NCBI GenBank assembly: GCA_023251135.1
Contig: JAHEZJ010000027.1
Location: 34,619-98,618, forward strand
Direction of reading: 5' to 3'
From: Flavobacterium sp.
GTDB taxonomy: Bacteria; Bacteroidota; Bacteroidia; Flavobacteriales; Flavobacteriaceae
DNA: 64,000 nucleotides
The position numbers were made by a program, and so were the translations under genes. Positions within the stretch are counted from its first letter, which is position 1. Each line of letters starts with the position of its first letter. The notes under the pieces were generated by a model that searched no databases, was not told the origin of the DNA, and worked only from the letters and a program-made list of their open reading frames with translations. Positions 4,978 through 12,447 of this stretch are shown here, piece after piece.

Positions 4978-5202
4978 ACTGCTTTTTTTGAATTACAGAA
5001 AAATGATTGCTGATTTTTGATTAGCGATTTTTGATTTAAGATACTTTACAAAATTGAAAGAAATTAACTACATTTGTGTTAGTCAGTAAAAGATTGAAAT
5101 TTTAAACCAACTATATTTCAGAAAAACACGTAAAACTACCTGTAAAACTTTGGTTTTATTCATTTTAATTTACTGTTATCTAGTGTGATAAAACAGTTTT
5201 GT

Positions 5203-6921: not shown

Positions 6922-7977
6922 TTACTTCTGCTTATTAATGTCGTTGTACAATTTATCTACTACTTTTTCCAAAATTTCTCCGGTTTCATTAAAACTGGTA
7001 TTGGTCAATATAGATATCCCTATATTTTGTTTAGGATAAATCACAAACCAATTCTGCATTCCGTAGATACCTCCGTGATGTCTGTAAATTAATTCATTGC
7101 CATTTTCTAATATGTACCAATGATAGCCTTCCCAAAAATCAGAACCTTCTTTGTATAATTTTTTATGAGATTCATTTACAATAAGATTTGACTCGTCAAG
7201 TTGCAATTTCATGTATTTTACTAAATCTGTAGTAGTAGAATGCAATCCTGAAATTCCTCCCCATAAAGTTCTGTTGAAGTTTGGCATTAACTCGTTTTTA
7301 TCGTTGTACCCTTTTACCAATCTTAGTTTTTCATTATCATTTAGTGTAAATTTGGTTTGGTTCATTTTATTTGGTTTCAAAACAAATTCATTTACCAATT
7401 CCTCATAAGGCTTTTGATACACTTTTTCAAGTATATAGGCAGTTAACTCTGGAGCCGTGTTGGAATAAGAGTATGTTTCTCCGGGTATCGTTTCAATTTT
7501 GATTAATTTCAATCCTTCCAAAAAAGCCGTTTTATTTTCACTTTTTGGGGGAAAATTTGGAAACCCGCTTGTATGCGTGAGCAAATGTTTAATTCTTATA
7601 GGTTCACCTTTAAACTCTAAATTGAGATAAGGTTCGTTAAGATAGATTCTGACATCATCATCTAAATTTATTTTTTTATCAAGTACGGCTTTTGCGGCTA
7701 CATAACCTGTAAAAGTTTTAGTTACAGAAGCTATTTCATAAAGTGTAGAATCGTTTGGTTTGTTCCCTTTTCCAATAGATAATTCTCCAAAATATTTTAT
7801 GGTCGATTCCCCATCCTTAAGCACTGCTACTGAAACAGAATGAAATCTTTTGTCCTCTAATAACTGATTGACATTTTTTGTAATCGCATTTTCAATATTT
7901 TGTTTATCGCTTTGCTGTCTACTTTTGCAGCCAATTAAGGCAAAAATGAAGAAGGGCATTAAATGTTTTAGGGTCAT
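6922..7977 (-). CDS. Serine hydrolase lipoprotein, class C beta-lactamase fold
   Basis: A 351-residue penicillin-binding-protein-like serine hydrolase. The N-terminus is a lipoprotein signal (FALIGC, Cys17 as lipidation site), so it should be anchored in the envelope. The nucleophile motif SxxK is SVTK at residues 84-87, followed by the YSN motif at 171-173 and an HHGG motif near residue 303 in place of KTG. These are the marks of the beta-lactamase/D-peptidase clan found in many esterases and peptidases, so drug resistance should not be assumed. Substrate is unknown. It is a single gene, convergent with the phosphoesterase gene. Confidence 0.85.
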   Translation of the reverse strand: MTLKHLMPFFIFALIGCKSRQQSDKQNIENAITKNVNQLLEDKRFHSVSVAVLKDGESTIKYFGELSIGKGNKPNDSTLYEIASVTKTFTGYVAAKAVLDKKINLDDDVRIYLNEPYLNLEFKGEPIRIKHLLTHTSGFPNFPPKSENKTAFLEGLKLIKIETIPGETYSYSNTAPELTAYILEKVYQKPYEELVNEFVLKPNKMNQTKFTLNDNEKLRLVKGYNDKNELMPNFNRTLWGGISGLHSTTTDLVKYMKLQLDESNLIVNESHKKLYKEGSDFWEGYHWYILENGNELIYRHHGGIYGMQNWFVIYPKQNIGISILTNTSFNETGEILEKVVDKLYNDINKQK

Positions 7978-8062: not shown

Positions 8063-8243
8063 AACTCATTAAGTTTTCTCGAGAGTAATAATTTTTGCTA
8101 AGATATTGAAAAAACGATTTTTAACATTACGGGAAAGCGTAAATGGCAAAGAAATATTTCAGCTGTGGTTTTTTTAATGCAAAAGTTTAAATACGATTGC
8201 TTCCGAAAAGGGAATAATTACCAGTTGAATCTTGTGCAGTCAT

Positions 8244-8281
8244 TTATTTGCCTATACAGAAATTAGCAAAATATTCCCCAG
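8244..8281 (-). repeat. Displaced second copy of the mnmE 3' end (attachment-site-like)
   Basis: These 38 bases match the last 39 bases of mnmE (10921-10959) at 35 positions, with three substitutions and one missing base. On the minus strand it reads TTTGCTAATTTCTGTAT and ends AAATAA, the code for FANFCIGK-stop. All three substitutions are synonymous third-base changes (GGA/GGG, ATT/ATA, GGG/GGC). The single-base gap breaks the frame only at the upstream end. No similarity extends further on either side. The 3' end of mnmE (trmE/thdF) is the known integration site of SGI1-type genomic islands, so this copy looks like the far junction of an inserted element. Confidence 0.75.
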
Positions 8282-8447
8282 CTGGTTCGGGTAGTTCCAA
8301 TAGAAAGCAAAAACAAAAGCCATGTGACTTTGCACAGCTGGAGTGTTTGTGTAGGAGACTCATGGTTTTATCTAAAAAAAAAGATATTTCTGTTGGTTAG
8401 CATATTAAAAACAATACTACGCTTTAACAGTTTTGGAATAGAATCAA

Positions 8448-9125
8448 TTAGTTACTTTCGTTGGCAATTACTTTATTTGCGACAGAATTGCTCGGCGAAT
8501 AATTAAATTTTACAATGTTATATTCATAGTTAAATTTGTCTAATTCACCACACTCACAGTCTATTTCTTCAAATTGATCTTTAGTCGTTGTGGTGGCGGT
8601 AACATAAGTAAAGGTGGTCACGGTTGTTCCTGTTATTTCAACGTAGCCTACAACGCAAGTTAAAAGGCCAATAGTTTTAGCTGTTGTGACTTTTGCATCT
8701 GCTTGTACAATTTTCATATATCGTAATAGATTGGATTCCAGGTATTTTAGTTTGTCATTTGAAATCCCTAGTACATCTTCAAAGAATTGTAAATTCACGG
8801 CAGAGGGTGTACCACAATACAATTTTGTGTTGGAGTATGCTGATGTTTCTCCCATTCCATTTATAGTGTTCATAGCGCGTTGCATTTCGGGGCCGTCTAC
8901 CAGATACAATCCTCCAACAAAAGGTGTCGTATTGTAGGTCTTTTTTAGGGCGACTCTTATATCAACGAATAATGCAAGCGCATTTTTAAAAGCTTCCAAA
9001 AGGGCTGTTTCTACTTTGTTATCTGCATCCTTTGGTAGTAATGCCAGTAGTAAATTTTCATTACAGGTGTGCAGCCACGCCTGATCCAGAGCAGGCGTAA
9101 TGCAATATGGTATAGATTTGTTCAT
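8448..9125 (-). CDS. Protein of unknown family, distant paralogue of its upstream neighbour
   Basis: A 225-residue protein with no recognised domain and no signal peptide. Features seen: a helical N-terminal half, the block GGLYLVDGPEMQRAMNTING near residues 72-91, a hydrophobic, threonine-rich stretch (about 150-180) that could be membrane-active or buried, a CEC motif near residue 190, and a tyrosine-rich end FNYEYNIVKFNYSP. The neighbour at 9335-10009 shows the same order of blocks (DGLYTLDQPAMVKALNSIRG, a hydrophobic stretch, KFSYNVDYTKVGYSY), so the two are ancient paralogues. Both point left inside the islet. Function unknown. Confidence 0.7.
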   Translation of the reverse strand: MNKSIPYCITPALDQAWLHTCNENLLLALLPKDADNKVETALLEAFKNALALFVDIRVALKKTYNTTPFVGGLYLVDGPEMQRAMNTINGMGETSAYSNTKLYCGTPSAVNLQFFEDVLGISNDKLKYLESNLLRYMKIVQADAKVTTAKTIGLLTCVVGYVEITGTTVTTFTYVTATTTTKDQFEEIDCECGELDKFNYEYNIVKFNYSPSNSVANKVIANESN

Positions 9126-9334
9126 GGGGTGTGTTTTTTTGTTGAGTATAAAATTGTAGTTTAAAAACGTGTTCGAAAACTGTTTTTTCTATTACGGATA
9201 AAACAAATTTGGTCATTTTATGCACTCTTTTTCATTGAATAGAGTAAGTATTCATTTCAAAGGAATGCATAAACTGACACAAATTAGTTACTTTTTACGA
9301 AATGCTTTATTTTCGTAAAAGTGTTGTTGTTGAA

Positions 9335-10009
9335 CTAAGATGGTTCTATGTAGGAATAACCAACTTTTGTATAGTCTACATTATAAGAAAATTTAGTTGA
9401 ATCGCTAGAGCATTTATGCTTGATCAGTACAGCAGCAGAAGAAGCTTTTGAAACTGCATATACAACAGACGTTGTAGGTATGTTCAGACCAGGTACTAAA
9501 GACAGTAACGTAATAGTTGTACCAAGGTTTTGAGCTGTTGTGTTACCCGCAGCCGCAGCCTGAGTCGCCGCCATCGCTCTATTAAGATAGTCGCGCATTG
9601 GGTTTACTGAACCGCCCACACCTGATAGGATATCGTTAAACAACTGCTCATTTGCTTGCTGTATAGTACCATTACCAATTAATGTTCTTTGGACTACATT
9701 AGTTTGTGACATTCCTCTTATAGAATTCAAAGCTTTCACCATAGCAGGTTGATCTAGTGTATAAAGACCATCCACCACTTGTTGTCCTGAAGTTGCCAGT
9801 ACAGCATCTTTTATTTTGTTAGGAACTTGTAAGGCTCTTAAGAAGGCATTTCCCATTATTCGGTTTTGCTCCTCGGACCAGATGTCTAGTTTATAATAAA
9901 AGATGTAATCATTTCCTTCTGTATGTATCCATGTGCCATCATTAGTAACGCCACGTGTTTCAAGTATAACATAATCATGTTTCTCAAAATTGTCAATAAT
10001 AGTGCTCAT
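9335..10009 (-). CDS. Protein of unknown family, upstream member of the islet paralogue pair
   Basis: A 224-residue protein with no recognised domain and no signal peptide. An N-terminal segment of about 45 residues (aromatic-rich, TWIHTEGNDYIFYYKLD) differs from the neighbour. From about residue 55 onward the order of blocks matches it: helical region, DGLYTLDQPAMVKALNSIRG, an alanine-rich segment (about 145-158), a hydrophobic segment (about 165-195), one cysteine near residue 200 and a tyrosine-rich C-terminus. The 209-base gap to the next gene lacks an obvious TAnnTTTG box, so it may be read through. It could be an effector, structural or defence protein; nothing in the sequence decides this. 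Confidence 0.7.
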   Translation of the reverse strand: MSTIIDNFEKHDYVILETRGVTNDGTWIHTEGNDYIFYYKLDIWSEEQNRIMGNAFLRALQVPNKIKDAVLATSGQQVVDGLYTLDQPAMVKALNSIRGMSQTNVVQRTLIGNGTIQQANEQLFNDILSGVGGSVNPMRDYLNRAMAATQAAAAGNTTAQNLGTTITLLSLVPGLNIPTTSVVYAVSKASSAAVLIKHKCSSDSTKFSYNVDYTKVGYSYIEPS

Positions 10010-10647
10010 TGTTTATTTGTTTTTGGGGTTGTAATCATTGCTACAAGAATTTATAACTACCTGTAACAACTAACCTTAGACCACCAGACTTTCTGGCGCT
10101 TCTAAAGTATTTGTCTTACTCATGAGGCTTTTCAGTTTTCGCCCCTGTAATAAAAACCTCTACAGGAAGGTTTGTTTAAGTGTGTGCTGCAGCATTGTTT
10201 TTTTTCTACTAGTAAACGAATTAAGCAAGACCATAAATCCGTATTTTTTATGTTACTTTTTAGAATATCGTATTCTAAATTACGCTTGGTATTGTAAAAA
10301 TTAGCTTACTGATAGTTTTTTGTTTTGTAATATTACTCTTCAAAATTACTTTATTACAAAATTATGAGATAGCGTATAAATACTTGATTTTTAATAAATT
10401 AGTATTTTTTTTGTTTGTAGGGCTAACTAACAGTTTATAATGCACATATATTTAGTCAAAACAGTAATGTTTCATGTAATATTATGCTAAAGCTAAAGGT
10501 AAAAATGAATCATGCTACAACTCGGTTATAGCGTTATAGGATAGCTTGTAAATTCTGACAAAAGGGACTATCGTGTTGCGGTAGAAAAGATCAATTGATT
10601 CCGGTTTAAAGTGATAACCTCAAAAAATCGTGTTTATAAAGAAAAGC
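10010..10647. other. Non-coding stretch inside the islet
   Basis: A/T-rich DNA of about 640 bases. A 60-codon open frame at 10122-10304 (+) is cysteine- and phenylalanine-rich, unlike any family, and is not accepted as a gene. A short hairpin with arms CCTGTA and TACAGG is visible near 10145-10167. No promoter box, RNA gene or repeat was recognised. Confidence 0.4.
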
Positions 10648-10860
10648 TTATGATGGAATGGAGAAAAAGGTATCGAGATCACATCTTCGAAGAGCGATTA
10701 TGGTGGCGAACTTAGTAATATCAAATTCGCCACGCTCAATGAACCGGTATATTGTCCCTTTGCTTTGGTCAATTTTAGACCGTCTAGTCCTTAATTTATA
10801 GGCCCTGGAGCTACATTTAAGAGAGTAGTAAAGTGTTTTTGTTGTGCCGTAAACACACTT
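10648..10860 (-). pseudogene. Decayed HTH (XRE-like) fragment beside the mnmE junction
   Basis: Minus-strand frame ending at TAA 10648-10650. It reads IDQSKGTIYRFIERGEFDIT and continues KFATIIALRRCDLDTFF, which resembles the second half of a Cro/C1-type HTH domain (recognition helix, then the LDTFF-type end). The frame is open back to a stop just beyond 10860 but has no ATG, GTG or TTG start, so the 5' part has been lost or frame-shifted. Regulators of this kind are common in integrative elements. The family call is tentative because only about 45 residues are informative. Confidence 0.4.
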
Positions 10861-10920
10861 TTACAGAATTCGCAGATTCTGGTAATTTTAAACGCGTTTG
10901 TTTAGTGTTGTTTTGCGATG

Positions 10921-10959
10921 TTATTTCCCAATACAGAAATTAGCAAATATATTTCCCAG
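10921..10959 (-). repeat. mnmE 3'-end copy of the islet-flanking direct repeat
   Basis: Partner of 8244-8281. It covers the last 12 codons and stop of the intact mnmE gene, and 35 bases are identical between the copies. It would be the regenerated gene end at the proximal junction of the islet. Confidence 0.7.
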
Positions 10960-12321
10960 TAACTCATCGTTTGAAACCTGACCGGTGATAAGACCAAATT
11001 GGTATAAAGCCTCACGAATATCAAGTGCAATTAGGTCGCTGGAAAGATTAGTTTCCAAACCGAATTTTACTTTCTGAATTTCATCTAATGCTTTAAGTAA
11101 AGAATCGTAATGTCTTGTATTGGTTACTATCGTTTCATTGTTTCGGAGGGCTCCGGTATTGACAAAAGAAAGTAATTCATTTTTTAAATCATCAACACCA
11201 ATTTTCTCTTTAGCTGAAATCAATAATAATTTTGCATTTAAATTTTCAAGTTTATTGGTGATGTTTGCAACTTCATCAGCAGACAATATATCTTTTTTAT
11301 TGACAACAATTAACAGAGGTTTTAATGGGTATTTATTTTTGATTTGTTCAATTTCAGAAACAAACTCAGAGCTTGAAATCTGAAACTTGAAACCGTCGAA
11401 TAAATAAATCACAACCTGCGCCTGGTCGATTTTCTCAAATGTTTTTTTAATTCCGATGCTTTCTACAACGTCCTTGGTTTCACGAATTCCTGCTGTATCA
11501 ATAAACCTAAAGCCAATTCCGCCAATCACTAGTTCATCTTCGATCGTGTCGCGTGTTGTTCCGGCAATGTCAGATACAATGGCACGTTCTTCGTTTAACA
11601 AGGCATTCAGTAAAGTTGATTTCCCTACATTGGGTTCTCCCACAATAGCAACCGGAATACCGTTTTTAATTACATTTCCAACGGCAAACGAATCAATCAG
11701 ACGTTTTAAAACAAATTCAATTCGGTTTAATAACTCATGAAATTGGGTACGGTCGGCGAATTCTACGTCTTCTTCGGCGAAATCCAGTTCCAGTTCAATT
11801 AGAGAAGCAAAATTTAAAAGTTCTTCACGGAGTTTGGCAATCTCATTACTAAAACCACCGCGCATTTGCTGCATGGCGATTTGGTGAGAAGCTTCGTTAT
11901 CTGATGAAATCAAATCGGCAACAGCTTCTGCCTGCGACAAATCAAGTTTTCCGTTTAGAAAAGCTCTAAGCGTAAATTCTCCCGGATCGGCCATTCGGCA
12001 TCCTTTTCTTAACAGCAGCTGAATAATTTGCTGTTGGATGTAAGTAGAGCCGTGACACGAAATTTCAATCGTATTCTCACCTGTATAAGAGTTAGGACCT
12101 TTAAAAACAGAAATCAATACTTCATCCAGCGTTTTAGAACCATCTACAATATGCCCTAAATGTAAAGTATGTGTTTTTTGCGTGGTTAAATCCTTGTTTT
12201 TTATGGATTTAAAAACCGAATTTCCGATCGTTATAGCGTCAGAACCTGAAATACGTATGATAGCAATAGCTCCAGCCCCGGATGGGGTGGCCAATGCAAC
12301 TATAGAATCTTGATTTATCAT
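10921..12321 (-). CDS. mnmE: tRNA uridine-5-carboxymethylaminomethyl synthesis GTPase MnmE (TrmE)
   Basis: A 466-residue GTPase that works with MnmG to modify the wobble uridine (cmnm5U34) of certain tRNAs, using formyl-tetrahydrofolate. N-terminal tetrahydrofolate-binding domain (about 1-120, starting QDSIVALATPSGAGAIAI), helical domain, G domain (about 220-375) with Walker A GEPNVGKST, switch region AGTTRDT, DTAG and NKKD, and the C-terminal helical part ending with the conserved FCIGK whose cysteine is catalytic. Start 12321 gives the family-typical N-terminus and lies directly behind a TAnnTTTG box, so the mRNA is probably leaderless. Its last 39 bases recur at 8244-8281, marking an islet junction. 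Confidence 0.97.
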   Translation of the reverse strand: MINQDSIVALATPSGAGAIAIIRISGSDAITIGNSVFKSIKNKDLTTQKTHTLHLGHIVDGSKTLDEVLISVFKGPNSYTGENTIEISCHGSTYIQQQIIQLLLRKGCRMADPGEFTLRAFLNGKLDLSQAEAVADLISSDNEASHQIAMQQMRGGFSNEIAKLREELLNFASLIELELDFAEEDVEFADRTQFHELLNRIEFVLKRLIDSFAVGNVIKNGIPVAIVGEPNVGKSTLLNALLNEERAIVSDIAGTTRDTIEDELVIGGIGFRFIDTAGIRETKDVVESIGIKKTFEKIDQAQVVIYLFDGFKFQISSSEFVSEIEQIKNKYPLKPLLIVVNKKDILSADEVANITNKLENLNAKLLLISAKEKIGVDDLKNELLSFVNTGALRNNETIVTNTRHYDSLLKALDEIQKVKFGLETNLSSDLIALDIREALYQFGLITGQVSNDELLGNIFANFCIGK

Positions 12322-12325
12322 GTTG

Positions 12326-12333
12326 CAAAGGTA
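12326..12333 (-). promoter_or_regulatory. -7 box of mnmE
   Basis: TACCTTTG on the minus strand, ending four bases before the ATG at 12321. No clear TTG at the usual -33 distance (only TTC at a 21-base spacing). It implies a leaderless or nearly leaderless transcript. Confidence 0.55.
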
Positions 12334-12447
12334 TAAAAAAAGGCACAAAATTACGAACTCAAAGCTGACTTGAAAATGAGGTTTTAAGTTTATTAAAATG
12401 CCAATTTTAATAAATTGTCAAATGTTAAAATACTGATAATTATCAGT

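Follow-up and report, generated by a model that had tools for sequence, protein, structure and literature searches.

The window, a 64,000-nucleotide stretch of DNA from Flavobacterium sp. (assembly GCA_023251135.1, contig JAHEZJ010000027.1, positions 34,619 to 98,618), raises the question of why the 3′ end of mnmE occurs there twice, once in the gene and once behind it, with an islet of two cargo genes between the copies. An earlier note, made from the letters of the window alone, had interpreted this arrangement as an insertion at the 3′ end of mnmE. The islet is, with little doubt, a decayed integrative element that entered at this place through a lineage of tyrosine recombinases using the site in Bacteroidota, and insertion at mnmE would account for an islet lacking any integrase.

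The displaced end of mnmE and the islet behind the gene

The last 39 bases of mnmE (10921-10959) align with 8244-8281, about 2.7 kb downstream, with 35 of the 38 paired bases identical, and the three substitutions (GGA/GGG, ATT/ATA and GGG/GGC, read by eye) are silent in the mnmE frame. The repeat and its synonymous changes had both been described in the earlier note and are confirmed by the alignment, but a 1-nt gap had been overlooked: because one base is missing, the displaced tail is in frame for the last nine codons only (FANFCIGK-stop). Over the last 27 bases of mnmE, the copy at 8244-8270 has two mismatches, as against six at the next-best place in the window. The repeat is real and is not one among many copies, as the genome-wide search suggested in the earlier note now makes clear: the mnmE DNA query returned two matches in the whole genome (79 contigs), the gene and the displaced tail (E 6.6e-6).

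Directly 3′ of mnmE lies what is left of a helix-turn-helix (HTH) gene. It matches the gene found in the same place in G374 (G numbers denote genomes; G374 is taken as Flavobacterium sp. UGB4466) at 88% over 131 columns and 82% over 110 in blastn and with E 1e-13 in tblastn, and the left arm of the islet is heavily deleted compared with that genome. Intact HTH homologues, together with a tyrosine recombinase, occupy the position of the remnant in other Flavobacterium, and the one in G024 has hits to HTH_17 and to a family of phage excisionases. At the far end, the stop codon of the displaced tail abuts the ATG of a truncated gene whose intact form has 118 codons (the 118-aa gene). No integrase of the mnmE-site family was detected in the islet, nor in the window's genome at E ≤ 1e-60. 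The earlier note was right that the cargo consists of two open reading frames (ORFs) and that the islet has no integrase, but it missed the HTH remnant and the truncated gene. Measured against the elements that carry such integrases at mnmE in Bacteroidota, the islet has the HTH gene directly 3′ of mnmE, as a deleted remnant, and the displaced tail at the far end beside the old neighbor (8244-8281 against the truncated 118-aa gene); what is missing in the window, behind the HTH remnant, is a profile A1 tyrosine recombinase, and the islet is therefore a remnant rather than an intact member.

Empty and occupied sites in Flavobacterium

A degenerate pattern of the mnmE tail is present in 331 of 398 genomes of the genus and occurs twice in six, the window's genome among them. 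The regions 3′ of mnmE were read in 46 cases, picked mainly as near relatives: 19 have a full-length pair of HTH gene and integrase immediately after mnmE, one a broken integrase, five (including the window) HTH pieces only, and 21 neither. Bigger islands that carry a tyrosine recombinase in this position, which the earlier note had proposed to look for, are common. The integrase profile (E ≤ 1e-60) finds a match in 48 of 131 sampled genomes of the genus, and in 39 of the 131 the integrase shares the strand of mnmE and is 149-4443 bp 3′ of it.

Sites at which nothing has been inserted are recognizable by the 118-aa gene, which is present in 90 of 396 genomes of the genus. It could be placed with mnmE on one contig in 33 genomes, in 27 of which it lies 3′ of mnmE on the same strand; measured from the mnmE stop codon, the gap is 0 in three of these 27 pairs, a one-base overlap in one, 66 bases in another, and 1.1-389 kb in the remaining 22. 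Four sites are empty, with gap 0 in G343, G386 and G046 and the one-base overlap in G293. Empty sites thus exist, as the earlier note had anticipated, but the ancestral neighbor of mnmE is the 118-aa gene and not the serine hydrolase gene itself. Inspection of 41 starts of the 118-aa gene, comprising these four and 37 filled loci, revealed a tail-like 27-mer (at least 20 of 27 bases) at the start in 12 of the filled loci, related pairs included, against about 0.07 expected from shuffled sequence. The 118-aa neighbor provides a simple handle for finding empty sites and measuring islands in Flavobacterium. Tail-like 18-mers occur in G075 and G054; the one in G054 was considered as an att site and ruled out, as it lies inside the 118-aa gene.

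The right junction of the window recurs in F. tructae (G159, taken as strain CCUG 60100), where the tail is followed by an intact 118-aa gene and the serine hydrolase gene, and the stretch inside the junction holds biosynthetic genes, on the ends of two contigs. This finding bears on the idea of a plain duplication, in which illegitimate or homologous recombination, and not a site-specific recombinase, would have placed a copy of a short stretch containing the 3′ end of mnmE at a distance of 2.7 kb. Such a copy would agree with a likeness that extends over 39 bp, past the 18-bp core, and with the absence of an integrase. However, it would leave aside the remnant of an integrase module adjoining mnmE, the same right junction with different contents in F. 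tructae, the existence of empty sites, and the many integrase-bearing islands at the same place, and we regard it as very improbable. Insertion at the 3′ end of mnmE, as the earlier note had read the locus, is supported by the empty sites, the integrase islands and the unscattered repeat.

Three further observations were made. Two loci of one genome (G352:C5 and G352:C8) each encode the C-terminal part of mnmE, which may reflect two mnmE genes or a mixed assembly. In G024:C4, at about 5020-5046, there is a full copy of the mnmE tail with an element-like arm; the 15 kb fetched contain no mnmE, and this copy may mark insertion at a secondary site. Many Flavobacterium genomes also have, at places other than mnmE, a second conserved family of integrases, about 420 aa long, that match profile positions 57-380.

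Element boundaries and relatives across Bacteroidota

Eleven genera of Flavobacteriaceae each have at mnmE one of 11 integrases that are 91-99% identical. In all 11, mnmE ends with the nine bases GGGAAGTAA, followed by a conserved arm, and the 39 bases preceding these nine are host-specific, all differing among the genera. Since the preceding bases belong to the host and GGGAAGTAA is constant, the crossover is placed within the last 18 bases of mnmE, with the element supplying the end of the gene. The opposite boundary can be seen in two genera (G480 and G470), where the right ends of the elements match with 97.6% identity over 1234 bp, as far as the displaced tail and no further; beyond it the flanks differ, and the cargo inside is different as well, that of G480 comprising a restriction-type methylase, an SNF2/PLD helicase and an AbiEii protein. 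In Bacteroides, B. finegoldii has an element at mnmE (its record is labelled plasmid) that shares with plasmid pBUN2 of B. uniformis three blocks of 97%, 91% and 85% identity; the identity starts in the last nine bases of mnmE. Both have mobilization genes behind the integrase, with relaxase genes in pBUN2, and no mnmE was found in the 17 kb of pBUN2 fetched.

These integrases are composed of the domains PF17293, PF13102 and PF00589 (Arm-DNA-bind_5, SAM-like and Phage_integrase). A match was found in 41 of 199 genomes in a sample of the family, where 26 of 30 fetched loci adjoin mnmE and 23 of these 26 have the HTH gene, and in 20 of 178 genomes in a sample of the phylum, where five of the 21 loci retrieved are next to mnmE (two of the five belong to Flavobacteriaceae). 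In seven of 29 genomes, mnmE is followed on its 3′ side, on the same strand and within about 200 kb, by another tail copy that has no more than one mismatch. Among 59 such tail matches, 30 are not the end of mnmE itself, as compared with nine matches for a reversed control pattern, and single one-mismatch matches can therefore arise by chance. Related integrases also occur in a Parabacteroides plasmid and in two phage-collection records, whose fetched stretches contain no good mnmE tail.

Judged by gene content, the relatives at the mnmE site include an integrative and conjugative element (ICE), mobilizable elements and a defense island, and they reach as far as Bacteroides. The ICE is the element of G079, so classified because it carries TraG, J, K, M and N of Bacteroidota conjugative transposon families; G374 and G004 have gene clusters in common with it. 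The contents of mnmE-site islands range over conjugation, restriction, toxin-antitoxin and nonribosomal peptide synthetase (NRPS) genes. In G355:C159, two further tails behind mnmE (two and five mismatches in 27) enclose two small units, one encoding a ParE-like protein (just below the Pfam cut-off) and the other a protein with a Fic-like motif (by eye); small units between successive tails look like a small cassette array. G030:C56 has the mnmE tail, three further tails on the mnmE strand and three integrases over about 200 kb, one of the integrases lying 794 bp behind a displaced tail, a tandem array at one site.

The distance between the HTH-integrase pair and mnmE falls into fixed classes near 150, 593 and 790-1003 bp, which would suit a pair inherited vertically as a household neighbor of mnmE, the islet being a product of local decay without any insertion. 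We find this hardly credible in view of 91-99% identical integrases in 11 genera, with host mnmE bases on one side of the boundary and constant element bases on the other, of the shared ends and different cargo in G480 and G470, of a Bacteroides element that is found both at mnmE and in pBUN2, and of the Tra genes in G079.

Cargo, mobility and comparison with known systems

The coordinates of the islet and its flanks are collected in Table 1. The two cargo genes are paralogous to each other (E 9e-12) and lie in a cassette that is also present, at another locus, in F. tructae and UGB4466. In F. tructae it has an NRPS gene on one side and an S41-type peptidase gene on the other (both named by eye); the islet is the only place in the window's genome that encodes the cargo proteins, and the peptidase-side region is on another contig (70% identity). 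The earlier account of a two-gene cargo holds, but the presence of these genes elsewhere in F. tructae had been overlooked. Domain and family searches gave no confident family match for the cargo proteins. Their fold models, of middling confidence (pLDDT, the predicted local distance difference test score, 72-73 from five sequences), both match only the group of Cyt cytolysins, volvatoxin A2 and Evf well, with 7-12% identity in VIA alignments and TM-scores of 0.27-0.50; the likeness to Cyt cytolysins is one of predicted fold. Weak matches to the cargo protein near mnmE in G385 and G130 were dropped, as they are on the 5′ side of mnmE in a longer, different protein.

Table 1. Features of the mnmE locus, in window coordinates
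Feature	Position	Strand	Remarks
mnmE	10921-12348	minus	ORF listed from TTG; in-frame ATG at 12321; TIGR00450 E 4e-121
attL-like core, last 18 bp of working mnmE	10921-10938	minus	crossover there inferred from 11 relatives
HTH (excisionase-like) gene remnant with deletions	10655-10886	minus	blastn and tblastn to G374
2.2-kb cassette	8291-10475	minus	counterpart at a different locus in F. tructae and UGB4466, 88-89% identity
Cargo gene 1, 224 aa	9335-10009	minus	Cyt-like predicted fold
Cargo gene 2, 225 aa, paralogue of gene 1	8448-9125	minus	Cyt-like predicted fold
attR-like displaced mnmE tail	8244-8281	minus	repeat of mnmE end
118-aa gene, truncated start	8187-8243	minus	gene directly 3′ of mnmE at empty sites
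Serine hydrolase gene, right flank	6922-7977	minus	PF00144; 92% DNA identity to G159 (F. tructae)

Outside the islet, about 40 bases at approximately 5000-5042 of the window form a short dispersed repeat, with matches of about 83-95% identity at many places in relatives.

Several observations weigh against the islet being a decayed element of the mnmE site. It has no remaining integrase or transfer gene, and the likeness of its tails extends over 39 bp, as compared with about 23 bp in F. tructae, in addition to the 1-nt gap. The 118-aa gene and mnmE are on opposite strands in six of the 33 same-contig pairs, gaps of hundreds of kilobases between them may reflect rearrangement, and 25 of the 37 filled loci have no tail at the 118-aa gene. 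The comparisons were drawn between relatives rather than within one species. Adjacency to mnmE does not form one clade in the integrase tree, which requires seven changes, five of them forced by well-supported branches (mean of 20.7 when shuffled; near-copies and long branches are present). Away from the window, in F. tructae and UGB4466, the cassette lacks mnmE tails on its flanks: the best tail scores around it are 18-21 of 27, as compared with 19-22 in shuffled sequence, and the cassette therefore need not have arrived with the element.

For a decayed element, the history of the locus could be reconstructed as follows. An incoming element with its own copy of the mnmE end, and presumably with an integrase of the Bacteroidota mnmE lineage, would have recombined with the chromosomal mnmE end, the crossover in the window's strain falling in the same bases as in the relatives. 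A working mnmE ending in element-borne bases would have resulted, and the old end would have been displaced beyond the insert, still in contact with the first codons of the former neighbor of mnmE, the 118-aa gene. A later deletion would have removed the integrase and most of the HTH gene, and the cassette with its two Cyt-like genes, either already present or newly arrived, would fill the space. Because the genome has no close integrase, the islet is probably immobile by itself. It could also be imagined as a still mobile cassette that is moved in trans by the integrases of incoming relatives, a working cis-mobilizable element (CIME) and not a dead scar. The good preservation of both tails (25 of 27 bases alike), the small cargo units between successive tails in G355 and the tandem array in G030 would fit such a cassette; the lack of a family integrase in the genome at E ≤ 1e-60, the extensive deletion of the left arm, the truncation of the 118-aa gene at the far end and the untailed second home of the cassette make it unlikely.

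As a decayed element, the islet can be set beside several known systems. The mnmE-site elements have the same integrase domains as Bacteroidota conjugative transposons and mobilizable elements of the CTnDOT/NBU type, and share with them TraG, J, K, M and N (G079) and relaxase genes (pBUN2), but they target the end of mnmE instead. For Riemerella islands, papers among PMC6764341, PMC6907783 and PMC9745183 give a tRNA as the target. Among the matches listed in the open-licence PubMed Central (PMC) literature, there was no report of mnmE-site elements in Bacteroidota. CIMEs are defined as elements that have kept their att sites and lost their integration and transfer genes (PMC5704250). By anatomy, the islet appears to fit this definition: it is flanked by attL-like and attR-like repeats (35 of 38 bases; 25 of 27 alike), a remnant HTH gene is present and the integrase is gone, and the site is used by integrase-bearing relatives, although no helper integrase is found in the window's genome.

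The closest parallel in the use of the site is with Salmonella genomic island 1 (SGI1). SGI1 and SGI1-related elements of Gammaproteobacteria use an 18-bp core when they integrate into the 3′ end of trmE/mnmE (PMC6531882); according to PMC9035990, the last 9 bp of attL in the SGI1 cluster are element-derived and read GGGAAGTAA, and SGI1-type elements have backbone genes and are mobilized by IncA/C plasmids. The 11 Flavobacteriaceae loci have the same site, the same 18-bp core and the same element-borne nine bases. The islet too is inserted at the 3′ end of mnmE/trmE, but it belongs to another phylum, has no integrase and contains two cargo ORFs only. Its site use mirrors that of SGI1, a likeness in target site, and the separate or very old lineage supposed in the earlier note can be called separate only so far as its integrases are of the PF17293, PF13102 and PF00589 make-up. 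As a separate observation in E. coli, 777 of 5374 genomes with a match to mnmE-tnaC have no place that covers 80% of the query, and several of the matches listed break off at the mnmE stop codon or no more than two bases from it.

It is likely that the FCIGK codons of MnmE serve as a landing pad for integrases in two phyla, with the crossover in the same 18 bp and even the same ending GGGAAGTAA: those of SGI1-type elements in Gammaproteobacteria and those of a widespread Bacteroidota lineage, so far undescribed, whose products at this site are ICEs, mobilizable elements, defense and biosynthetic islands, and islets without an integrase. Since constraint at the protein level preserves the motif, an element that brings these codons could enter many hosts and leave the gene unharmed. 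Known as the site of SGI1 in Gammaproteobacteria, mnmE is also a frequent island site in Bacteroidota, and a comparison of how the integrases of two phyla act on one conserved block of codons is now directly testable.
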